Shown: positions 1 to 10,569 of the stretch, one piece after another
Position numbering within the stretch: the first letter of the stretch is position 1
Layout of the letters: the number at the start of each line of letters is the position of its first letter
Assembly (NCBI RefSeq): GCF_031127815.1
Contig: NZ_JARXHY010000004.1
Coordinates: 124,001 to 188,000, forward strand
Origin: Pelagicoccus sp. SDUM812003
GTDB lineage: Bacteria > Verrucomicrobiota > Verrucomicrobiia > Opitutales > Opitutaceae
DNA: 64,000 nt
Direction: 5' to 3'
Position numbers and translations under genes: made by a program
Notes under the pieces: generated by a model
The model's database searches: none
The model's input: the letters and a program-made list of their open reading frames with translations, nothing else
Told to the model about the DNA's origin: nothing

Positions 1-218
1 GTAAATCCTTCTGGCATAACATCAACCACTCTCGTCGCGTTTAATCGGTTGGCTCTATAAAGTTAGTCTGACTCAGGTCCTCATATATGTCGACCAATCC
101 TCTAGTTCATTGGTGGTGAGATAAGGGATCCTAGGTCGTGTTTTGTGATCCGTTTGTGTGCCTGTAATGCCGGCTTTCGAGCTTGAGGTGTGGTTGGGGG
201 CGTCGGTATGAGATAGTG
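1..218. other. A+T-rich stretch without a recognised gene
   Basis: No reading frame with a credible start, RNA gene or clear hairpin was seen here. The base composition is lower in G+C than the rest of the window and continues into the next three genes, so it probably belongs to the same acquired segment. It may hold the promoter of the small genes that follow, but no convincing -35/-10 pair was found. Confidence 0.4.
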
Positions 219-461
219 ATGAAATCCAATTCCTCTAGTCTTGTTTGGAGTGCTGTGATCGTGGGGTTGTCAGCAATAGTTTGTACCGTATTATTTATCG
301 AGTACCCGCCAGATGGGCGTTTCGAATTAGAGAAAATAGACAGCCTAAATGCTATGTGGGTTGTGGATAAACAAACGGGACGTGCTCGATTCTACAGAGT
401 TAACCTACAAACCCGAAAAATCGAAATTGTTAGTGAGGTCGATTACCAGTTTAAACCATGA
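219..461 (+). CDS. Small single-pass membrane protein, unknown function
   Basis: This is an 80-residue protein if translation begins at the ATG at 219; an upstream in-frame start at 183 would add 12 residues with no membrane or signal character. Residues about 8-27 form one hydrophobic segment (VWSAVIVGLSAIVCTVLFI). A short hydrophilic tail follows, probably outside the cytoplasm. The stop overlaps the next start in an ATGA, so the two genes are probably translationally coupled. The local G+C is clearly below the window average, as in the next two genes. No family is recognised. It is likely cargo of an integrated element. Confidence 0.55.
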   Translation: MKSNSSSLVWSAVIVGLSAIVCTVLFIEYPPDGRFELEKIDSLNAMWVVDKQTGRARFYRVNLQTRKIEIVSEVDYQFKP

Positions 462-958
462 ACTCCACTGATATTCTTCAGTCGTTGGGCATTCTTACCG
501 TGTTCTTGACATTTGTAGGAACTGTTTGGATACAGGAGCAACGTAGGAGGCACGACTTGTTGCGTGAGAAACTTGAAGCACTGATAGAACACTTGCACAC
601 TATCGCTTGGGCGCCTTTTCAGGTCTCTGTCGAGCTTTCAGATGCCAAGTGGGATTCTGATCCTGATTCGGTGTTGAGCCGAATTCGGATTTTAAACGAG
701 GCAGGGTTTTCGAATTATATCCATTCGGTTAGTCGGTCTATCTCGATCGCTGATGTCTACTTTCACCGATATTCGAGGGATTTGTATGAACTAGCAGATC
801 GTGCTCACGCGCTGCAGAACTATGTGAAGAATGGAGACCTTGATTCTTTCCTCGATACGCTCAAACCCACTATGAACAAGGCGGGTTCTATGCTTGAGGC
901 AATTCACAAGGATTTTGCTTCGATAACCAAATCAACGCACATTCCAAGCGAACTGTAG
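458..958 (+). CDS. Membrane-anchored hypothetical protein
   Basis: The protein has 166 residues. An N-terminal hydrophobic stretch (residues about 8-25, LGILTVFLTFVGTVWI) is followed by a basic turn (QEQRRRHDLLREKL) and a mostly helical cytoplasmic domain. That domain is rich in aromatic and charged residues, and no catalytic motif is visible. It starts inside the stop of the preceding gene (ATGA) and ends 9 bases before the DUF2806 gene, so the three genes look like one operon. The family is not recognised; a helical membrane-tethered partner of the DUF2806 protein is one possibility but only inference. Confidence 0.6.
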   Translation: MNSTDILQSLGILTVFLTFVGTVWIQEQRRRHDLLREKLEALIEHLHTIAWAPFQVSVELSDAKWDSDPDSVLSRIRILNEAGFSNYIHSVSRSISIADVYFHRYSRDLYELADRAHALQNYVKNGDLDSFLDTLKPTMNKAGSMLEAIHKDFASITKSTHIPSEL

Positions 959-967
959 TCGATCACT

Positions 968-1984
968 ATGGATGATAATAGAACAAGATCGATCAATAGC
1001 TTCCTGGACACAATCAGTGCTGATCTAGGGAGCCTTTACAAGCCCAAGGCTATTTCTGAAAAGCTAGTGAATGTCGAAAGTTTGGATAAAACCGTCAGCG
1101 AAATCCAAAGCTCAGAAACCCTTTCGAGAGCCCAGAAGAGGCTCGCAATGCAAGAGGCTAGACGGCAGGTCAATATCGATTCCGTGGTCGAGAAAAGCCT
1201 TGAGGAGATTTCTGAAGAAATTCCGAGTAAGCAGATGGATCCTGATTGGATCGCGAGATTCTTTCAAGAAGCTAAAGATACATCAGATGAGGATGTACAG
1301 AGTATTTGGGCAAAGGTTCTCGCTGGTGAATATGAGAACCCTGGGAGTTTCTCGAAGCGCGCTTTGAGTATGGTGAAAGACCTCTCCAAAGAGGAAGCCG
1401 AAGAGATCCAGACAGCAGCCTCTAGGGTATGGGAGGTTGAGCTTTCGGACGGCTCTAAAGTGAAGTACCTGAACGTTCTAATCGTAGACAAATGGTCTCT
1501 CGGCACAGGGTATGATGAAAGCACCCCATTTGTTGCTGATTACAAGGGCGTTTGTCAGCTCCTACAGGATTGCGGTTTTCTGCACTCGGACGATTTCCAG
1601 TTCCATTTCTCGGGAGAAGGCTATCTTGACCCCGAAAAATATCGGCTTGGTGATAGTTCGGCCAAGGCTTTAACCTTCTATGACAAAAGGTTGGTCGCGC
1701 GAACGAATCAACCAGGGTTTTTAAAGGACGAGGGACCGACCGTCACTGAAGATGGAAGGCCTAAAAGCAATACCTGGCAGCGGCAGATCTTTTTCGATGC
1801 TTGGAGGCTGACAAGAGAGGGTGAGGCTCTTTTGAGGGTTATTAAAGCGAAGCCAGACCTTGCTCTATTCCAGAAGATCTCAGAGGTGCTCGAAGAAAGA
1901 GGATTCTCTTATGACACGGTTATTCTGAATGAATCGGACCCTGAAGAAGGCTATGAGAGATCTGGTCATAATGCTTCCGCTTAG
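968..1984 (+). CDS. DUF2806 domain protein
   Basis: The protein has 338 residues. The central segment, roughly residues 95-150, carries the pattern I associate with DUF2806: DWIARFFQEAKDTSDEDVQ, then IWAKVLAGE, then PGSFSKRALSMVKDLS. The N-terminal third is charged and helical (QKRLAMQEARRQVNID). The C-terminal part has alternating aromatic and charged residues and a LTREGEALLRVI segment that could be a small winged-helix-like or capping region. There is no signal peptide, so it should be cytoplasmic. The biochemical role of DUF2806 is not established. It is the last gene of a three-gene A+T-rich operon, followed by a candidate hairpin terminator and a possible att site. Confidence 0.7.
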   Translation: MDDNRTRSINSFLDTISADLGSLYKPKAISEKLVNVESLDKTVSEIQSSETLSRAQKRLAMQEARRQVNIDSVVEKSLEEISEEIPSKQMDPDWIARFFQEAKDTSDEDVQSIWAKVLAGEYENPGSFSKRALSMVKDLSKEEAEEIQTAASRVWEVELSDGSKVKYLNVLIVDKWSLGTGYDESTPFVADYKGVCQLLQDCGFLHSDDFQFHFSGEGYLDPEKYRLGDSSAKALTFYDKRLVARTNQPGFLKDEGPTVTEDGRPKSNTWQRQIFFDAWRLTREGEALLRVIKAKPDLALFQKISEVLEERGFSYDTVILNESDPEEGYERSGHNASA

Positions 1985-2047
1985 GGTTTCTTGAATCCAA
2001 TTTCTCGCTGTTTTCTTGCCAAACCAGATTCCACTCAAAACAACTCA

Positions 2048-2128: not shown

Positions 2129-2347
2129 AGTGCGAGGTTGGTGCTTAAACGGGATGGGAATCTCACCCGCGGTGGTCCGGTTCCGCTTTGCGAGGAACTC
2201 GTTCGAGTCGCCTCAGCGATAAGGGCTCGAACTTGATTAGCTGCGAGAGTCGCCGCCGGCTCCGCCGTCAACGCCGTCTCCCGGGAGGCCGGCCGTCTTG
2301 TCGATGGAAAGTTCTATCAGGACGGGCGTCTCCCATTCCTGCTGTGA
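2129..2347 (+). pseudogene. Decayed coding remnant with an internal stop
   Basis: One frame reads protein-like sequence from 2129 to a TGA at 2345-2347, broken only by a TGA at 2234-2236. The two parts contain segments such as CEELVRVASAIRA and VNAVSREAGRLVDGKFYQDG. The stretch has high G+C and codon use like the rest of the window, unlike the segment before 2126. No start codon or ribosome binding site is evident and I do not recognise the family. It may be the tail of a host gene disrupted next to the integration point. Random open frame in G+C-rich DNA is the main alternative. Confidence 0.25.
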
Positions 2348-2543
2348 GCCTTGCGTTGGCATTTCGTTGGAATTCGTTTCGGTGTGTGAGGCTTTGTCCA
2401 TAGCGGTTCATACTAGAGGGTCGGTTTCAAATTGCAAATGAAGCGCGGGCTTTTCTTGGTCATCGTTGGCTGGCGGTGACGTCTGGGGATTGTTGTGGAG
2501 CGGTTTGCGTTTTAGATGCCTTTTGGAAAGACTTCTCCGTGAT

Positions 2544-3230
2544 ATGTTGTCCCGATGGTTGAATGCAGTTTTGTTTGACGATGCTTCTCTGAGCCAGTTT
2601 CGAGACCGTTTTCGGCGAAGCGGAGTATGTGTGGTGGACGACTTTCTGTCGCCGGAAATGGCGGACCGGATCAGCGCGTTTGTAGCGCGAGAAGCGGAAT
2701 ACGAAAACCGGTACGGAATTTTGGATACGAAGGGTGGCATCTCCCGGGAGGAGTGGGAATCGAAGGACGATGCCAGCAAGCTCTTCAGTCTCTCGCGCTT
2801 TTCGAAGGTGGGGGATCGCTACGCCCTCAGCCCAAACTGGCTTTCCTATTTACGTTTCACGAGCGCTAGCACTCAGCTTGAGCTGGGGAATCTCTGGGCT
2901 CGGATCTGTACTGACGATACCGCAGACGCGGTGGTCACGGGGAGTGAATGCCTTCTTGGGGCCTTGAGCGGAAACCAGTTCCTTCGCTATCATACGGACA
3001 AGGGCGAGGGCGCCGAACGTTTGTTCTGCACCGTTCTCTATTTGTCGAAAAACTGGCAAGAGCGCGATGGTGGCCACTTGCACATCGATGCCGAGGGTGG
3101 CGAGGTGGTGGTAGTCCCGACGTTCAATCGCTGCGTGGTGTTTTTGCCTGGGCTGAGGCACGCAGTTGGCGAGTTTGCGGAGTCTTCCACTGGTAAGACT
3201 CGGTACAGCCTTACGACCTGGTACACCTAG
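2544..3230 (+). CDS. 2OG-Fe(II) oxygenase family protein
   Basis: The protein has 228 residues from the ATG at 2544; an upstream frame extension exists but looks non-coding. The double-stranded beta-helix motif is present: the HxD pair is His150 and Asp152 (YHTDKGEG), the distal iron ligand is His206 (GLRHAVGEF), and the 2-oxoglutarate-binding arginine is Arg220 in TRYSLTTWY. The family hydroxylates small molecules or amino-acid side chains in the cytoplasm using 2-oxoglutarate, oxygen and Fe(II). It converges on the cyclase-like gene with stop codons sharing a CTAG at 3227-3230. The locus suggests it hydroxylates the peptide product, but the substrate is unknown. Confidence 0.8.
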   Translation: MLSRWLNAVLFDDASLSQFRDRFRRSGVCVVDDFLSPEMADRISAFVAREAEYENRYGILDTKGGISREEWESKDDASKLFSLSRFSKVGDRYALSPNWLSYLRFTSASTQLELGNLWARICTDDTADAVVTGSECLLGALSGNQFLRYHTDKGEGAERLFCTVLYLSKNWQERDGGHLHIDAEGGEVVVVPTFNRCVVFLPGLRHAVGEFAESSTGKTRYSLTTWYT

Positions 3231-5137
3231 CGAAACGCTTCGAGCGCGATGGCGTGCGAGAGGGCTGGATAGATCTTGAACTGAATCGCGTTGTCCCAGT
3301 AGCCGTAGTTGTAGTTTCGCTGGTCGGAAAGCGTCTGATCGACAGCCTGCTCGACCTTTTCGAAGTCTATCGCTTCCTGGGCGATTTCGCTCTGTCGGGC
3401 GCGCTCGAGGAGCTGGCGGATCTTCGTTTCCTCGGCCCGAGCCGTCGCATGAAACGAAGGGACAAAGGCTCCTTTGCTTGTTCGCAAGCGCACCGAGTCT
3501 GGCAGGATCGACTTCATGGCTTCTCGCTGAAGACCTCGGTCCATGGGGTGATCGGCGAAATGCTGGAGTGGCAGCCCGACGGCGAATTCAAGGAAACGCG
3601 TATCGTAGTAAGGGCGCAGATTCTCTAGGCCAAGTCGGCGAAACATTTGGGCCTGCTTGGATCCCATTCTGCCGGAATCGAACTCGATGGCCATGGCTTC
3701 GCGGATATCGCGGACGGGGAGAAGCGCGAAGTCGACGTGCTCTCGCAAGAGCTCTTTCAAGCCGGTCGACTCGATGAAGCCTTTTCGGAGCGAGCAGCCT
3801 TGGAGGCGACGCTCGATGGCGCCTCCTCGACTCAGAGCGCGCATTCGTTCGACGAAGCGAGGGGCCAGAGGCCCGAGGATTTCAGCTTTTAGAAAACGCT
3901 TCACGCTCGGGTGTTTGCCGAAGCCGAGCTTGAGCAGTCGAAGCGTCTCCCATATGCCAACGGCGGGAAAGCTGGCTAGGGCGCAGCCGTATCCACGGTT
4001 CGAAGCAAGGTGGTCGCCGCCCATCCCGGCGATGAGGCTTCGGGCTCCACGTTGGGCGACCGCGGTACCCATTTGCTGGTAGATGTGTCCGTATTCCCAG
4101 CGCGGTTCGTCGAGGTGTCGAGCGAATGTCTCCAAGTCCCTGAACGGCCCGTATTCATCGGAAAATACAGCGAGATGTTCCAGGTTCGAGTGCGACTTGG
4201 CGACCGTATCCATATGTTGGATCTCTTCGGTAGCGATCGGATCCAACGGAATGCGTGGACGCGCGGAGACAGCGAAGATGCGCGCGTTGATCGTCGCCCC
4301 GTATCGCGCAGCCAATGCGGTGACAGCCGACGAATCCAATCCGCCACTTAAGTTGGTCGCAACAGGGAAACTGCTCTTCATCCGCGCTTCAACGGCTCGC
4401 TGCAGATGGTGGCGAATCCCTTCGATGGATTCGCTCAAGCTGAGTCGATTGGAATCGATGAACGACGCCAGCCGATGAAAGCGATTCATCTGCTCTCCAT
4501 TTTTGGATACGCGAAGCGTGTGGGCGCTTTGAAGGCTGCGAACGGCCTTGATGAGAGTGCGCTCGGGGTAGGGATTGCGAACGCGGGCGATATTCATAGC
4601 CAGTACCAGCCGATCGACGTTTTTCGGAAAGTCTGGAATAGCGATGAGGGCATCGAGCGAACTCGAGAAGGCGAAGTAGTTGTCATTGCTCGCGTAATAC
4701 AGAGGACGGTTGCCTTCCGGGTCGCGGGCGAGCAGAAGCGTTTGATCCGTATCGAAAGCCATGGCGAGGGCGAACTCGCCGTTCAAGCGGAGCGCGTCTT
4801 CCCCGTCCTTAAGAAACAGCTCCAGCACGAGTCGACCGTCGGGCGTGTCGGGCGGCAAGCGATTTCCGAGTCGAGCGAAGGCGATCTCCCGCTCGTAAAG
4901 TCGGCCGTCGAATACGATGGATGCTTCGGCTTCTTCATTGCGAAACCGCTCCGCGCTATCGGTCGCTTGGTTAGAGTCGATCTGGAGCGTCTGTTGAGAG
5001 AGCAAAACCCACGACCGCTGGTGAGTGAAGGCGCTGTCTGGTCCGATGGAACCCATTTGGGCTCGCATCGCTTCGAGGCGCTCTTGAGAGAATGCGCCGG
5101 AGGCTTGTTTGGACAGGATACCGCAGATGGCGCTCAT
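3227..5137 (-). CDS. Asparagine-synthetase-like protein, probable lasso-type cyclase
   Basis: The protein has 636 residues from the ATG at 5137. The N-terminal third is a glutaminase-like (Ntn) fold starting MSAICGIL, so the cysteine is residue 5 and not the catalytic Cys2 of true AsnB. The synthetase domain has the ATP-pyrophosphatase loop SGGLDSS near residue 262 and IAGMGGDHLASNRG further on. A displaced cysteine with an intact ATP loop is typical of lasso peptide cyclases (McjC type), which adenylate an Asp/Glu side chain to form the macrolactam. Genes for a PqqD-like RRE protein, an HprK-like kinase and an exporter nearby support this role. A glutamine-independent amidotransferase of another pathway is the alternative. 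Confidence 0.75.
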   Translation of the reverse strand: MSAICGILSKQASGAFSQERLEAMRAQMGSIGPDSAFTHQRSWVLLSQQTLQIDSNQATDSAERFRNEEAEASIVFDGRLYEREIAFARLGNRLPPDTPDGRLVLELFLKDGEDALRLNGEFALAMAFDTDQTLLLARDPEGNRPLYYASNDNYFAFSSSLDALIAIPDFPKNVDRLVLAMNIARVRNPYPERTLIKAVRSLQSAHTLRVSKNGEQMNRFHRLASFIDSNRLSLSESIEGIRHHLQRAVEARMKSSFPVATNLSGGLDSSAVTALAARYGATINARIFAVSARPRIPLDPIATEEIQHMDTVAKSHSNLEHLAVFSDEYGPFRDLETFARHLDEPRWEYGHIYQQMGTAVAQRGARSLIAGMGGDHLASNRGYGCALASFPAVGIWETLRLLKLGFGKHPSVKRFLKAEILGPLAPRFVERMRALSRGGAIERRLQGCSLRKGFIESTGLKELLREHVDFALLPVRDIREAMAIEFDSGRMGSKQAQMFRRLGLENLRPYYDTRFLEFAVGLPLQHFADHPMDRGLQREAMKSILPDSVRLRTSKGAFVPSFHATARAEETKIRQLLERARQSEIAQEAIDFEKVEQAVDQTLSDQRNYNYGYWDNAIQFKIYPALSHAIALEAFR

Positions 5138-5223
5138 GGCAGGTCTTGGAGTGAAACGTTTGCCTTTCGGAGAAATCGTCCGCGGGCTTGCGCGATGCTG
5201 CTCTCTGGCTCCCTTTGTGTACC

Positions 5224-6384
5224 ATGCAGAGCCAACTCGCAACTCAACTGCTTCCGGACTCGTTTCTCGAGAAGGATTGGGAACGAAACTTCCGGTTTCT
5301 CGAATCCTTTTCCACCCTGGATCACAAATCCTACTTTTCGTTGGAGGATGCCGAATCGATCTTTCGCTTTGCTGGTCCGGTCTCCGAGGTGCGATGCTTG
5401 ATGGCCTTCCGAGGAAAGATCGTCAAGCTGGATAGTCTTCTCGATGGCCCGCGAGCATTCAGGGTCGAAAAGATCATGCGTCATTTCAAAGGCGGAGCCA
5501 CGCTTCGGCCGACCAATGTGCATGAGCGTTCGGAACGGATCCGCGCCTTGGCGTCGCGCCTCACGGCGGAAACAGGCTCCATCGCACGCGTCAATGCGTA
5601 TCTGACGCCGTCTCGCTCCTATGCCTTCAAGCCGCATGCTGATCCATATAATGTAGTTGTTTATCAACTTCGTGGTAGGAAGCGCTGGAAAATCTGGTCC
5701 CGGCGGGCGGATCGTCCGCTGGAAGGTGAGCATCCGGAAATCGACGCGGACAGCTTGGGGGAGCCGGAGCGGGAATTCGATCTCGAACCGGGACAGGCCA
5801 TCTACATCCCGCGTGGATTGGCGCATGCCGCGTCCGCTTTGTACAACGAGCCATCCATCCATTTGACGATTGGCTTGCACGCCCCGCTGTGGCTTTCGGT
5901 GGCCCACGACGCGCTGGCTGCCTGCGCCGATCGCGACGGTTTTCTGAGAGAATTCGCTCCGGTGGCCGGCCAGGTCGCCATGGATCGCGACACGGCGTTC
6001 GAGACTTTGGGTCGCGTTTTAGGAAGCGTCCAATTGGAGGACCTCGACGAATCGTTGCGTCGGCATGAAGAACTAAGGCAAAGCATGATCGCCGCCAAGG
6101 AAGATTCGCTCGCAGATGCGGAAGCGGTTCAGTCGCTGAACCTTGATTCGGAGGTAGGGGACGCTCGTTCGCGTATTCACGGTATGGATTTCGAGGATGA
6201 CTACTTGTCATTGAATCTTGGGCACAGGAATTTGAAGTTGCAGCCGAGCCTCAGGAAGGCGGCGGAGTTCGTTTGGAAGACGGAGCGCTTTGAAGTGAGT
6301 TCAATCCCTGAGCTGCCAGGCGGTGAGCGTTCGAAGCTGCTTTTTGCTCGCTATTTGCTGAACAATGGCGCTCTCGGAGTCTAG
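5224..6384 (+). CDS. Cupin_4/JmjC-like oxygenase
   Basis: The protein has 386 residues from the ATG at 5224; an in-frame start at 5188 adds 12 residues of little protein character. The cupin core shows HADPYNVVVYQLRGRKRWKIW followed by EPGQAIYIPRGLAHAA and SIHLTIGLHA. These are the iron ligands HxD and H of the ROXA/YcfD ribosomal oxygenase group. Known members hydroxylate arginine or histidine side chains of ribosomal proteins. The gene is divergent from the cyclase-like gene and tail-to-tail with the kinase gene (stop codons overlap in CTAG at 6381-6384). A role in hydroxylating the local peptide product is inferred from position. Confidence 0.75.
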   Translation: MQSQLATQLLPDSFLEKDWERNFRFLESFSTLDHKSYFSLEDAESIFRFAGPVSEVRCLMAFRGKIVKLDSLLDGPRAFRVEKIMRHFKGGATLRPTNVHERSERIRALASRLTAETGSIARVNAYLTPSRSYAFKPHADPYNVVVYQLRGRKRWKIWSRRADRPLEGEHPEIDADSLGEPEREFDLEPGQAIYIPRGLAHAASALYNEPSIHLTIGLHAPLWLSVAHDALAACADRDGFLREFAPVAGQVAMDRDTAFETLGRVLGSVQLEDLDESLRRHEELRQSMIAAKEDSLADAEAVQSLNLDSEVGDARSRIHGMDFEDDYLSLNLGHRNLKLQPSLRKAAEFVWKTERFEVSSIPELPGGERSKLLFARYLLNNGALGV

Positions 6385-7355
6385 CTGGTTGCGGCGATAG
6401 TGGTCAGGCAGTCTTCGATTTGTTGGCGCAGGGTTTCAAGGTCGGTAGGCTTGTGGGAGGGTCTTCGTAGTCGAATCACGGGTACGCTTGAAGCGACGAT
6501 GATCGCGTTTTGAAGCAGTTGCGAATCTGTTCCGAGAGGCACCGTCCAATGACGTTTGAAGATGCTGCTCGCGATGAGCGACAGCTTTCGTTTCCCCGAG
6601 CAGGACATCAACTGGTGGGCCTCGATTTCCGGACGCGCTTGCACCGCGAATATGGCTCGAATGGGGATCGATGCCTGGTTGCTCCAATTCAGGTTGTGGA
6701 AGTGATGCTTATCCTCCACGAACGGGATTTCGCGTGGATCACGACCGAGGAGGGAAGCTGACGACGGGTCGAGACGATGGACTCGCGGCCCGCAGTCGCA
6801 AACGGGAGGTTTGCCTTGGAAAACGCGGATGGGAAGAAGGTCGTCGGAAACGATGGGGTGGCCGATCGTTTCGAAATAGGAGCTGATGGTGGATTTGCCG
6901 CTGCCGGAGTCGCCAGCGAACGCTACGACGGCGCCGTCAACCTCCACGGCGCTCGCGTGCAGGGGGACGATTCCGCGCAGGCTGAGAACGGTGGCCAGAC
7001 CCACGCCGAGGAGATAGCTAGTCAGATCGGCGATGGCGTCGGGGCGCTCGAGTTCGACCTTGATGGTGTTTGGTCCGTCGACTAGGAAGCGTCCGGCGCT
7101 CTCGATTCGGCCCAAGAGCTTTCCCGGACACGCTTCAAACCGCGGCCGTTTCAGGAGCGGCCGTTCGAGACGATCGGGGACGGAGGCCCCTAGAAACACC
7201 AGATCAGGGGCATGGCTAAACGTTTGCTCGTTTCCGAGTTCGGGCAGGGCAAAATCGCTTTCGATCGCGAGGCCGCAGCAATGGTAGCGAAATCGATCTC
7301 CGCTTTGGGGCGAGGGGTAGAGGCGCCGCTTGGAGGATTTGTAATGCGAGGCCAT
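6381..7355 (-). CDS. HprK-like serine kinase of lasso-type RiPP loci
   Basis: The protein has 324 residues. Near residue 150 it has the P-loop GDSGSGKST, preceded by the strand pattern HASAVEVDGAVVAF and followed by an acidic SDDLLPI motif. This matches the C-terminal kinase domain of HPr kinase/phosphorylase. The N-terminal 100 residues are a separate domain starting YHCCGLAIESDFALPEL, as seen in kinases of paeninodin-type lasso clusters that phosphorylate the C-terminal serine of the precursor. It lies 6 bases downstream of the PqqD-like gene on the same strand, so the two form an operon. No PTS HPr gene is nearby, which argues against carbon-catabolite control. Confidence 0.75.
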   Translation of the reverse strand: MASHYKSSKRRLYPSPQSGDRFRYHCCGLAIESDFALPELGNEQTFSHAPDLVFLGASVPDRLERPLLKRPRFEACPGKLLGRIESAGRFLVDGPNTIKVELERPDAIADLTSYLLGVGLATVLSLRGIVPLHASAVEVDGAVVAFAGDSGSGKSTISSYFETIGHPIVSDDLLPIRVFQGKPPVCDCGPRVHRLDPSSASLLGRDPREIPFVEDKHHFHNLNWSNQASIPIRAIFAVQARPEIEAHQLMSCSGKRKLSLIASSIFKRHWTVPLGTDSQLLQNAIIVASSVPVIRLRRPSHKPTDLETLRQQIEDCLTTIAATS

Positions 7356-7361
7356 CGCCTC

Positions 7362-7649
7362 TTAGGCGGTGACTTTAGTCACAAGTCCGTTTTCTTGGAG
7401 CTCGGAAATGAACTGGCCCACTTCCTCTCTGCAGGTCGATTGGTCGACTTTGAACTCGCTAAGAATCTGAGCATAGATCTGTTCCGGCGATGTCGGGGTT
7501 TCCAGAAGGTCCCAAATCCGACTAGCGACTTGGTTCATGCCGAAGTACTTTCCGGATTCGGCATCGAGAAAGACGCGAAGGTCCTCGAGTTCGGTATCGA
7601 CGAGGTCCGAGCGACGTTTCAGAAGGGGGCTTTGAGTGGTGTTGTTCAT
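7362..7649 (-). CDS. PqqD-family peptide-binding (RRE) protein
   Basis: The protein has 95 residues. The sequence LRVFLDAESGKYFGMNQVASRIWDLL, then SPEQIYAQILSEF, then EVGQFISELQENGLV is the winged-helix pattern of PqqD and of lasso B1 proteins. These RRE domains bind the leader of a precursor peptide and present it to the modifying enzymes. It is the first recognised gene of a minus-strand operon with the HprK-like kinase and faces the exporter gene across 184 bases. It is a stand-alone domain, not fused to a transglutaminase-like B2 peptidase, and no B2 gene was found in this window. Confidence 0.85.
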   Translation of the reverse strand: MNNTTQSPLLKRRSDLVDTELEDLRVFLDAESGKYFGMNQVASRIWDLLETPTSPEQIYAQILSEFKVDQSTCREEVGQFISELQENGLVTKVTA

Positions 7650-7658
7650 AGTAGCTCG

Positions 7659-7835
7659 CTACAATCGAAGTGAGTTCAGCGGCAAGTCAAACGGTGTCTG
7701 GTTTTTTGTCCCGGGCTCTTCGCATCTCATGGTCCTTCCGGTTGCCAAATGCCCTGCTTCGTGTCCAAATGGACTTACATGACATCGCTCTTCCTCAAAT
7801 TCGGCACTGGCAGCACGCTGCGAAGGGCTCCTCAT
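7659..7835 (-). CDS. Weak candidate RiPP precursor ORF
   Basis: This open frame of 58 codons lies immediately upstream of the PqqD-like gene on the same strand, where lasso precursor genes often sit, and stops 9 bases before it. Its C-terminus GTKNQTPFDLPLNSLRL would fit a lasso core with Gly1 and Asp9 as macrolactam partners and an 8-residue tail. The middle has a Pro and a Gly at the spacing of the leader motif YxxPxLxxxG (HVSPFGHEAG). Against it, the usual threonine at leader position -2 is absent, no ribosome binding site precedes the first ATG, and the stretch must also hold two divergent promoters. An internal ATG at 7730 has GGAAGG three bases upstream but would make only 23 residues. 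Confidence 0.2.
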   Translation of the reverse strand: MRSPSQRAASAEFEEERCHVSPFGHEAGHLATGRTMRCEEPGTKNQTPFDLPLNSLRL

Positions 7836-9600
7836 GAAAGGCTATATGAACGATAGCGTATCCATACTTTGGAAGGCCTGCGTTCGCTTTATCCGTTTCG
7901 CTCCCAAGCGGCAGGCTGCGCTCATCGGTTTGCTCCTGTTGCAAGGGGTGACGACCGGGGTTGGGCTCTTGATGATAGTCCCGCTTCTGCAGGTGATTGG
8001 CATCGAAACCAGCGGCGAGGTCGGGCGGGGATCGAGCGCGGCGCTCAAGGCGATTGAATGGATCGGGATCGAACCGACTCTCGGGCTTATGCTCATCGTG
8101 TACGTCGGTGTGGTCGCTCTTGTAGCGACGGTGAGGTACTCCGTAGCCTCTCTTGCGGCGTCATTGCAATTTGGTTACATAAGCTACAATCGCGATTCGC
8201 TTTTTCGTTCCCTTCTCAGGGCGAAGTGGGAGTTCATCGTGACGCGGCGCATGTCGGACTTTTCTCATGTGCTATCCAGCCAGGTGCAGGCCATCGGACA
8301 GGCATCTTATTTGATGGTGAACTTCATCAGTCAGCTTGTATTGGCGAGCGTGATGATGGCTCTCGCTTTTTTCGCTTCTTGGCAGCTTGCGTTGGTCGCG
8401 ATCGCAATGGGTGGAATTTTGCTGGTCATGCTTCTTCCGATCAATCGAATCGTCTACGGTTCCGGACGCCTGCAGCTGATCGGCTACAAGTCGGTATTTC
8501 AGTTGCTGACGGAGCAATTGGGGTGTCTAAAGATGATAAAAGGCTTCGGCGATGAAGAAGCCTACGCGGAGCGACTGTATCGGGCAGGTTCGACAGTGGA
8601 AACCCAGAGCGCTCGGGTCTTGAGGCTCAACGCCTTGACCCAATGGGTCTACGTCACCGGAGCAGTGGTGGCTTTCGCGGTTTTCTTTTATCTCTCCCAG
8701 ACGCGCTTTTCGGTCTCTCTGGTGACGGTGATTCTTCTGCTCGTCATCTTTTCGCGGTTGCTGCCGCAGCTTTCCTCGATTCAAAAGACTTATCAGCAGC
8801 TTGTCCACAAGGTGCCAGCCTTTCGGGATGTAGAGGAGATGAAGCGAGAATGCGACGCGGCTTGCGAAGCGGGTGATCCTGTCGATGTCGGGCCGGTATT
8901 TGATCGAGAAGTCTCTATCGAGAACGTCTCCTATCGCTATCCCGGTCGGGAGGACTTCGCGCTTCGGCATGTGACTGCGTGTATTGAGAAGAATAAGACA
9001 ACTGCATTGGTCGGACCCTCGGGCTCAGGGAAGTCGACCTTGGCGGATTTGGTGGCTGGGCTCTTGGAGCCGACGTGTGGAGAAATTCGTTGCGATGGGG
9101 TGGCGCTCACTGCCGAATCGCGTCGAGCATGGCGGCGGAGCGTCGCCTACGTGACGCAGGAAGTGTTTCTGTTTCACGACACGATACGGGCCAATCTGGA
9201 ATGGGTGGCGCCGGTTCCTCCCGCTGAGGAGGCGATTTGGCATGCTCTCAAGCTGGCTGCCGCTGACGAATTTGTGGCGCGACTTCCGGATGGGCTGGAC
9301 ACCATCGTAGGGGATCGGGGGATACGCCTTTCTGGCGGTGAGCGTCAGCGGATCGCCCTTGCCAGGGCGCTGTTGGCGAAGGCCCAGTTGCTGATTTTAG
9401 ACGAGGCGACCAGCGCTTTGGACTTGGAGAGCGAGCGTCAAATCCAGAGAGCCTTGGAAGGTTTGCGAGGCAAGGCGACGTTGCTGGTCATCGCCCATCG
9501 TGAAACGACTATCCAAATGGCGGATACGCGAATTGAGCTTCTAGATTCGCGAACGGAAGGTGCGAATCGTTTTGCAAGCGAGGAAGGGGCGAGCGACTGA
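7834..9600 (+). CDS. ABC exporter, permease-ATPase half transporter of the RiPP locus
   Basis: The protein has 588 residues. The N-terminal half has six predicted membrane segments within about residues 25-320. The C-terminal ATPase domain has Walker A GPSGSGKS near residue 392, signature LSGGERQR, Walker B LLILDEATSAL and the H-loop IAHRE. The protein should act as a homodimer at the inner membrane. It lacks an N-terminal C39 peptidase, so it would export an already processed product, like lasso D proteins. The ATG at 7834 is preceded by GAAGGG at good spacing; a second ATG lies 4 codons later. It diverges from the PqqD-kinase operon, sharing a 184-base control region. Confidence 0.85.
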   Translation: MKGYMNDSVSILWKACVRFIRFAPKRQAALIGLLLLQGVTTGVGLLMIVPLLQVIGIETSGEVGRGSSAALKAIEWIGIEPTLGLMLIVYVGVVALVATVRYSVASLAASLQFGYISYNRDSLFRSLLRAKWEFIVTRRMSDFSHVLSSQVQAIGQASYLMVNFISQLVLASVMMALAFFASWQLALVAIAMGGILLVMLLPINRIVYGSGRLQLIGYKSVFQLLTEQLGCLKMIKGFGDEEAYAERLYRAGSTVETQSARVLRLNALTQWVYVTGAVVAFAVFFYLSQTRFSVSLVTVILLLVIFSRLLPQLSSIQKTYQQLVHKVPAFRDVEEMKRECDAACEAGDPVDVGPVFDREVSIENVSYRYPGREDFALRHVTACIEKNKTTALVGPSGSGKSTLADLVAGLLEPTCGEIRCDGVALTAESRRAWRRSVAYVTQEVFLFHDTIRANLEWVAPVPPAEEAIWHALKLAAADEFVARLPDGLDTIVGDRGIRLSGGERQRIALARALLAKAQLLILDEATSALDLESERQIQRALEGLRGKATLLVIAHRETTIQMADTRIELLDSRTEGANRFASEEGASD

Positions 9601-9618
9601 GGCGCTTTAGTAGCGTTC

Positions 9619-10569
9619 TCAGATGCGCCTGTGAGCGAGGCTTGCTTTCAGGTGTGAATACGCGGCTTGGATCGCCTCGAGGGACCTTGATCCGACAAGC
9701 GTTTCTGTTTCTTGGGCGCATCGATTCGAAGGGGCGACATACGGCGGTTGCTCTCCCGCAACGCGTTTTGCGTAGTAGGAGTTCTGGGCGAGCATCATTG
9801 CTATGCTCGATTCGCTAGGCTTTGGGAGTGCGAAGTGATTGAGAATCGCTGTCAGGCTTGAGCTGATCTCTTCGTAGTCGACGAAGCGCAGGGTAGAGCT
9901 TTCTGCCATATCGACCGCATGGCGAGCGTGTGACAGGTAGGTAGCGACGGCGGCGTTCGCAAGGTCCGCTCTGGAAGGTGAGTCTTTTCCCAGTCTTGCG
10001 AGCAGCCAAGCTGGTGGACCGAGCGAGAGGGATTCGATGACAGGGACAGGGCTCCTGAAAAGGAGAAGCTTTGGGGTTTTGGGTATCGAAGAATCAACTA
10101 CATTCCGATGCTCGAGGATCCAAGAAGTAAGCTTGACGACGAGTTTTCCGCCTCGAGATCTTGCCCATTCGCCATAGACCGAGAAGACGGCTCGCAACGC
10201 ATCGACACGCTGTTCGTGGCTCAGGTTTGGCAACGCTAGAATATCTCCGAGAATCGGCGGCTCGCTCACCACGATTAGGTTGGGATGCTGCTTGAGCATC
10301 TGGCACAGCAGAGTCGATCCGCAGCGTCCGCAATGGTAGATGACTCCAGCTAGGTTGTTCGGTGATTTGCGAGTGGCTGACAGCAAGGAGTCCAGCGGTC
10401 CGATGGTGGCGTTTTGTTCCATCGAGGGCAGTGCCTTGGCGCTATCCTCGAAGAAACCCGCGGAAAGATCGAGATTCGTTCCGTTTATCCATCGCGTGAG
10501 GATCCTGTTTTGGACGCTCACTATTCGATGCGGGAGCAGTCGCTCGATAGGCTGTGAATCGAAGTTCAT
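9619..10569 (-). CDS. Sulfotransferase family protein
   Basis: The protein has 316 residues. The PAPS 5'-phosphosulfate loop is GVIYHCGRCGSTLLCQML near residue 100. A later SSTLRFVDYEEI segment fits the 3'-phosphate-binding region. The protein has no signal peptide and should be cytoplasmic, transferring sulfate from PAPS to a hydroxyl or amine. It converges on the exporter gene with only 18 bases between the two stops. Sulfotransferase-like genes do occur beside lasso-type clusters. With the two oxygenases, a hydroxylate-then-sulfate modification of the product is a plausible inference. A kinase or other P-loop role cannot be excluded from sequence alone. Confidence 0.75.
   Translation of the reverse strand: MNFDSQPIERLLPHRIVSVQNRILTRWINGTNLDLSAGFFEDSAKALPSMEQNATIGPLDSLLSATRKSPNNLAGVIYHCGRCGSTLLCQMLKQHPNLIVVSEPPILGDILALPNLSHEQRVDALRAVFSVYGEWARSRGGKLVVKLTSWILEHRNVVDSSIPKTPKLLLFRSPVPVIESLSLGPPAWLLARLGKDSPSRADLANAAVATYLSHARHAVDMAESSTLRFVDYEEISSSLTAILNHFALPKPSESSIAMMLAQNSYYAKRVAGEQPPYVAPSNRCAQETETLVGSRSLEAIQAAYSHLKASLAHRRI

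Follow-up and report, generated by a model that had tools for sequence, protein, structure and literature searches.

The window, a 64,000-nucleotide stretch of the genome of Pelagicoccus sp. SDUM812003 (G000), carries a gene cluster for a lasso peptide in which the precursor, the cyclase, the ribosomal-peptide recognition element (RRE), the kinase, the exporter and three tailoring genes stand together, and whose probable leader peptidase, B2, is encoded on another contig. Very likely this is a functional kinase-type lasso cluster with its B2 acting in trans and with an unusual tailoring set. What is new about it is probably exactly that, an in-trans (and probably shared) leader peptidase together with the tailoring genes, in a pathway that is otherwise of the real lasso-peptide type. 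Seven of the genes (cyclase, RRE, kinase, exporter and three for tailoring) had been named in an original prediction made from the DNA letters alone, and all of them are present, open and located where it had placed them, with family scans in agreement apart from the weak matches noted below. Its description of the pathway as lasso-like or lasso-derived was right as to the kinase and the tailoring genes but too cautious otherwise, since a canonical precursor is present. In the following, L numbers denote stretches that were read, C numbers contigs and G numbers genomes, and family-wide comparisons refer to 200 family genomes.

Precursor and core enzymes

The precursor gene A (2237-2401, minus strand; 54 aa) lies 142 bp left of the boundary at 2544 from which the locus had been described. 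The prediction, which had called for a search for short precursor open reading frames (ORFs), had overlooked it; it was found by inspection of the short ORFs in the gaps and matched by a profile made without it. It encodes leader MDKASHTETNSNEMPTQGSQQEWETPVLIELSIDKTA / core GLPGDGVDGGAGGDSRS, of which the 37-aa leader contains W23-E-T-P26-V-L28 and T36 at position -2, while the core fits a ring predicted to run from Gly1 to Asp8 and ends in ...DSRS, i.e. with a C-terminal Ser. The ORF thus combines the features that mark a lasso precursor (a WxxPxL leader, a small residue at core position 1 and Asp/Glu at positions 7-9); most discrete lasso RREs are reported to recognise [Y/W]xxPx[L/V/I/A/F/Y] (PMC13381572; this and the other papers given by PMC number were accessible in part, and statements on them refer to those parts).

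Short intergenic ORFs were listed for the window locus and six other loci. L004 yielded none; in each of the five others, including the second cluster of the same genome, a single ORF of 50-57 aa that encodes a WxxP leader stands next to the cyclase gene or close by. These five precursors, chosen by eye from the listing and with the window sequence excluded, made up profile A1. Because motif flags were at hand in this choice (four ORFs carried both flags, all among the six called precursors, and those of L022 and L023 carried one each, a different one), WxxP is partly a selection criterion. Against the whole genome, A1 returned the precursor on C26, which is one of its rows, at 6.2e-22, the window ORF second at 4.4e-4, and the next match at 0.07. 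A six-row profile matched 8 of the family genomes at E 0.01, all of them among the 12 with PF13471, the B2 family, at E 1e-6; five of the 8 had supplied profile rows, G007, G148 and G218 had not, and Puniceicoccaceae bacterium K14 (G015; Verrucomicrobiota) gave a second, new precursor. The profile missed G066, G099 and G174, for which candidates were picked by eye beside the cyclase. The precursors counted came to 13 (window, L021, L022, L023, L024, L029, L062, L063, L064, L065, L067, L069 and L071), with WxxP in 13/13, largely by selection, and a C-terminal Ser likewise in every one, the Ser not having been a selection flag, although the later profile matches (L062 to L065) stem from a model that includes it. 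The objection that homologous loci might conserve no precursor gene, which had been named as fatal to the prediction, therefore failed.

The Thr(-2) rule puts an Asn at the start of the core in L022:10919-11092 (TA/NTGGGGGD) and in L071:14378-14605 (TE/NDIGIGGD), Asn seeming unusual as ring residue 1. Ile at position -2 is apparent in the precursors L023:9316-9480 and L063:10580-10732 (KIE/GG...), mirroring the Ile(-2) reported for Bradymonas (PMC10368454).

The cyclase C (3227-5137, minus strand; 636 aa) matches Asn_synthase at 2.8e-32, and its best NCBIfam model is that of the lasso cyclase, NF033535 (4.2e-60, 204 bits), compared to 138 bits for TIGR03108. In the tree, 13 lasso-locus cyclases are separated from 6 AsnB-type enzymes of the same family with a support of 100/100 and in 200/200 bootstrap trees, and it is by this grouping that the window protein is classed as an AsnB-like macrolactam cyclase. 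Its sister, again at 100/100, is the cyclase of L071, a locus with B1 (PqqD by Pfam, 2.5e-13), B2, an ABC exporter, K and a precursor. This tree, which does not include L030 (G033), has three terminal branches flagged as long, and its branching order within the lasso group is poorly supported. The displaced Cys5 and the SGGLDS loop of the prediction were both seen (MSAICGI at the N-terminus, with Cys at position 5 instead of 2; SGGLDS at 264). Only 3 of seven aligned cyclases (window, L071 and L067) have Cys at this position, three having Ala and one Phe, and Cys5 is therefore not a conserved nucleophile.

The stand-alone, PqqD-like RRE, B1 (7362-7649, minus strand; 95 aa), matches PqqD at 2.9e-19, above the Pfam cut-off, as well as the solved lasso RREs (lasso PqqD chaperone 9x90, 4.8e-12; TbiB1, 2.1e-11; also TfuB1), so that the RRE typical of the lasso class is in place. 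Its gene lies 6 bp upstream of that of the HprK-like precursor kinase K (6381-7355, minus strand; 324 aa), in which H133, G148, G151, G153, K154, S155, D171 and D172 make up the complete HprK-like motif H-G-G-G-K-S-D-D, with GDSGSGKS as part of it. The match to Hpr_kinase_C is weak (E 0.0014, below cut-off) and the HprK-like identity goes by the motif. The C-terminal Ser is the reported target of several lasso kinases (PMC8498205), and both marks of a kinase-type cluster, the motif in K and this Ser in the core, are found here. The exporter D (7834-9600, plus strand; 588 aa), divergent from B1, is made up of ABC_membrane and ABC_tran, Peptidase_C39 not being among its family matches.

A leader peptidase on another contig

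The prediction had found no B2. This is true of the window cluster; elsewhere in the genome, however, the PF13471 search that it called for detects one intact B2, on another contig. PF13471 occurs in three places, namely C3:126429-126770 (1.6e-22), a stretch within a 1043-aa protein (2.5e-5) and a sub-threshold match. The first is part of an orphan B2 gene (L004:8313-8825; 170 aa, GTG start), the product of which scores 88.2 bits on NF033537 against a cut-off of 33 and keeps Cys93 and His130, while its codon-position GC resembles that of the window cluster genes. Both the orphan gene (C3, 126 kb of 530 kb) and the window cluster (C4, 126-135 kb of 450 kb) lie mid-contig, and no lasso genes were seen beside the former in L004. 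A B2 thus exists in the genome, outside the cluster, and would act on the window precursor from there. Leader removal had been predicted to be done either elsewhere or by a new protein: the former fits, and a new protein need not be invoked, given the ordinary B2 gene on a different contig. The orphan B2 may share a transcript with a gene (L004:7433-8296) that ends 16 bp before it and encodes a lipoprotein-like product with a pair of similar GWY...W.WA stretches. The gene downstream of the orphan B2 occurs in 3 of the 8 genus genomes, its own included.

The orphan B2 is 54% identical to the B2 of the congener G006, and 53% and 45% identical to the two B2s of K14, which belong to a window-type cluster (L029, identical to 14,361 bases of contig JAKYXN010000040) and an L021-type cluster, respectively. 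In the B2 tree, G000 and G006 group with a support of 0.989, and these with the two G015 B2s at 0.998; the orphan and G006 proteins stand next to the L021-type B2 of K14 (G015b) with a support of 0.556, at which the order is not fixed. In L029, B2 and the start of the exporter gene share 4 bp (ATGA). Since the exporter (57%), the sulfotransferase (35%) and the B2 (53%) all have their counterparts there, this part of the window cluster appears K14-like, with the B2 elsewhere; the cyclases, in contrast, are only 26% identical and are not sisters in the tree. The separation of precursor and B2 is not peculiar to the G000 assembly, because one 5.5-Mb contig of G006 carries the precursor (C6:3424316) ~97 kb away from the sole PF13471 match at E 1e-6 (C6:3521220).

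At the position that B2 occupies in K14, the window has a 55-aa ORF with a GTG start (7670-7837, plus strand) that overlaps the exporter start by 4 bp. It was considered as a B2 relic in the gap 7650-7833, in shuffle tests with 12 B2s (that of G066 excluded). Its residues 4-25 are 45% identical to the orphan B2 (Smith-Waterman score 40, reached by 2/1000 shuffles). The 11 other B2s, however, gave no support (at best, 62/1000 shuffles were as high), nor was there a relic signal in the gap at the DNA level (140/300 shuffles as high).

The genome has a second lasso cluster, on C26 (L021:7737-13879), which holds its sole other PqqD. Here a kinase, a PF00685 sulfotransferase, B1, the precursor (9822-9980), a cyclase, an Asp_Arg_Hydrox oxygenase and a GT8-Sulfotransfer_3 fusion are found, and neither B2 nor exporter was seen in the stretch read. 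The second cluster of K14 (L062) is collinear with it but ends in a B2; both K14 clusters (L029, L062) thus have a B2, and the two G000 clusters have none. PF00733 occurs in four places in G000, two of which are the lasso-type cyclases of the window and L021. The tally is two precursors, two B1s, two lasso-type cyclases, a kinase per cluster and one B2, with one exporter that matches the window's at E 1e-100. Because the L021 cluster also lacks a B2, it is plausible that one B2 serves both.

In the pathway that we infer from these genes, and in the step order presumed here, B1 would bind the 54-aa precursor via its W-x-x-P-x-L leader and the HprK-like kinase would phosphorylate a Ser, probably the C-terminal one. 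The B2 from the other contig would cut the leader after Thr(-2)-Ala(-1) and, being the only one found in the genome, probably serves the L021 cluster as well. The cyclase would join Gly1 to Asp8, the two oxygenases and the sulfotransferase-like protein would decorate the core, and the ABC exporter would export the product, perhaps that of both clusters. The predicted product is a threaded, knot-shaped peptide that may be phosphorylated, hydroxylated and perhaps sulfated. Before tailoring, the calculated [M+H]+ is 1455.65 for the window lasso and 1747.87 for that of L021. A wider proposal, of a hub B2 (and perhaps a hub exporter) that matures two lasso peptides in trans, in a family whose lasso peptides are characteristically sulfated and phosphorylated and in the case of the window also hydroxylated, is put forward tentatively and may well claim too much. 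If one B2 does serve two B1/precursor pairs, B1-B2 specificity could be tested within one natural host. Genome mining that looks for A, B and C side by side could moreover overlook the window cluster and its C26 sister or call them defective.

Alternative explanations

It could also be that the cluster has lost its B2 and is decaying, with the orphan B2 serving L021 only and the window precursor either being processed by a different protease or staying uncut. The window cluster does lack a B2 where K14 has one 5' of the exporter, G000 has two precursors for one B2, and the tree puts the orphan and G006 B2s next to the L021-type B2 of K14, if only at the low support given above. However, all genes of the window cluster are open, the precursor included, and the five active-site motifs that were checked are intact; the orphan B2 is, pairwise, nearer to the window-type than to the L021-type B2 of K14 (which the tree does not confirm), and the gap ORF does not stand out as a relic of B2, with 1 of 12 B2s clearly above shuffles and nothing at the DNA level. 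Decay is therefore regarded as unlikely. A similar absence would result if a second B2 were hidden in the 2-3% of the genome that the assembly lacks, or if contigs were mis-joined, with nothing acting in trans. A second B2 could indeed sit in the part missing from this draft assembly (88 contigs, 97.5% complete), but the window cluster and the orphan B2 are far from contig ends, the contig of the L021 cluster continues beyond it with further genes, and the congener shows the same separation on its 5.5-Mb contig, which makes this explanation quite improbable.

The cyclase could, in principle, belong to a non-peptide amidotransferase pathway (AsnB of the exopolysaccharide, EPS, or PEP-CTERM type), as there are EPS- and PEP-CTERM-like genes near related cassettes, TIGR03108 gives 138 bits, and the nearest solved structure is asparagine synthetase B (6.8e-11), followed by hydroxyamidotransferase and beta-lactam synthetase. 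Against this stand the higher score of the lasso model, the tree, which splits the two groups at 100/100, and the presence of a B2, a lasso RRE and a precursor. Grouping with AsnB-like enzymes, the other outcome that had been named as fatal to the prediction, was thus not observed; the AsnB/EPS identity was rejected, and we give such a pathway almost no credence.

Several results nevertheless weigh against a functional lasso cluster with its B2 in trans. Besides the possibility of a B2 in the missing part of the draft, the NF033535 score of the cyclase is below the cut-off of 525 bits, and no lasso cyclase is among its 3 PDB matches. B1 scores 66 bits (3e-18) on the lasso PqqD model NF033536, below the cut-off of 80. 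The window's sulfotransferase family is not lasso-specific, since 13 of the 200 genomes match it, most of them without a B2 match. The detached B2s of G000 and G006 share no neighbours at E 1e-5, and a PDB search with the orphan B2 gave no meaningful match. Finally, all 12 readable B2s, the orphan included, have Gly 12 residues after the B2 His (HAW), a position which we take to be that of the catalytic Asp in McjB.

Tailoring genes, known systems and flanking regions

The first tailoring gene (2544-3230, plus strand) encodes a 2-oxoglutarate (2OG)-Fe(II) oxygenase of 228 aa that matches 2OG-FeII_Oxy_3 (PF13640) at 3.2e-14 and has H150xD152...H206...R220; its nearest relatives in the PDB are the EglN/PHD prolyl hydroxylases (EglN2, 2.2e-7). 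The second (5224-6384, plus strand; 386 aa, with a possible alternative TTG start at 5188) encodes a JmjC_2/cupin_4 oxygenase (PF08007, 7.3e-24; H138xD140) of the NO66/MINA/YcfD-like type, for which NO66 is closest in the PDB (8.8e-21), along with MINA and, more weakly, a putative asparaginyl hydroxylase (6.6e-8) and an L16 arginine hydroxylase (2.3e-7). The ends of the 2OG oxygenase and cyclase genes, and those of the JmjC_2 oxygenase and kinase genes, overlap convergently by 4 bp. Going by these resemblances, Pro3 and Arg16 of the core, which has no His, are our guesses for the hydroxylation targets. Oxygenases also occur in related loci: the lasso locus of G099 (L067) has two JmjC_2 proteins, and Asp_Arg_Hydrox oxygenases are found in L021, L069 and, by 64% identity, L062.

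The sulfotransferase-like protein (9619-10569, minus strand; 316 aa) has the weakest-supported gene name, with matches to Sulfotransfer_3 (E 0.015) and NodProtNoeE (3.5e-4) that are both below cut-off. Its GRCGSTL loop at 81 is nonetheless intact and it aligns with three homologues, those of L029 and L069 passing the Sulfotransfer_3 cut-off. Counting 13 loci with a lasso-type cyclase (L070, at a contig end, excluded), a sulfotransferase gene is present in 11 and was not seen in L024 and L071. A PF00685 sulfotransferase is found in L021, L022, L023, L062, L063, L064 and L066; members of the family to which the window protein belongs are found in the window, L029, L064, L067 and L069. The recurrence of these genes predicts new chemistry in a form that can be checked. 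PMC8498205 mentions putative sulfotransferase genes for lasso clusters of Firmicutes, without a product, and its accessible part has no word starting with "sulfat"; that of PMC9266682 has no word starting with "sulf", and that of PMC13352647 uses "sulfat" once, in an unrelated reference. No sulfated lasso peptide is among the literature matches listed, whose coverage mostly excludes subscription papers, or in the accessible parts of these papers, nor is there, among those listed for Verrucomicrob/Opitut, a title on lasso peptides of these bacteria.

With paeninodin and the other HprK-type phospho-lasso peptides (Firmicutes, Sphingobium; PMC8498205) the system shares A, discrete B1/B2, C, D, an HprK-like kinase and the C-terminal Ser of the precursor; it differs in having no B2 of its own in the cluster, in the two additional oxygenases and the sulfotransferase-like protein, and in its phylum. 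The bsf cluster of Bradymonas (PMC10368454) has A, B1, B2, C, D and K, and the motif of the window kinase has the spacing of BsfK. BsfK, however, phosphorylates core Ser3, whereas the window precursor has no Ser3 (and has Thr(-2)), and the bsf genes named in the accessible part include no oxygenase, compared to two in the window cluster. A 2OG-Fe(II) hydroxylase in a lasso cluster is known from canucin A, where CanE acts on the linear precursor (PMC8498205); the window likewise encodes a 2OG-Fe(II) oxygenase, but of the PHD-like kind and accompanied by a JmjC_2/NO66-like one. A lasso pathway that is not in one piece is also known from citrulassin, with its PAD outside the cluster (PMC8498205), and, going by a reference title in PMC13352647 and PMC13381572 ("split biosynthetic operon"), from the cebulassopins. 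In the window system, in contrast, the distant part is the leader peptidase, and the sole one found for two clusters.

Divided arrangements are also seen among the related loci. In G218 the precursor (L065:8788-8943, the only one of that genome) lies mid-contig, on another contig than the exporter, B2, kinase, sulfotransferase, B1 and cyclase (L066:4978-12537), so that no precursor stands beside the cyclase in L066. The kinase belonging to L067 is located in L068, and none was seen within the stretch read of L069. Five genus genomes (L021, L022, L023, L024 and L063) have a kinase-(sulfotransferase)-B1-(B2)-precursor-cyclase cassette near EPS-like genes and a gene for a PEP-CTERM-like protein, with no window-like exporter beside it. 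The EPS, PEP-CTERM and phage names of flanking genes were assigned by reading, except for DUF2806, which comes from a family scan.

A tRNA search of the window found none, PADLOC defence-system models gave no match to 4 proteins, and P0008 as sole query found no relative in the named genomes. Left of the cluster, a stretch of lower GC (0.46), comprising window positions 1-2000 plus L006, stops ~250 bp short of the precursor gene and contains phage- or element-like genes, among them those for a 2324-aa protein (L006) and a DUF2806 protein (968-1984).

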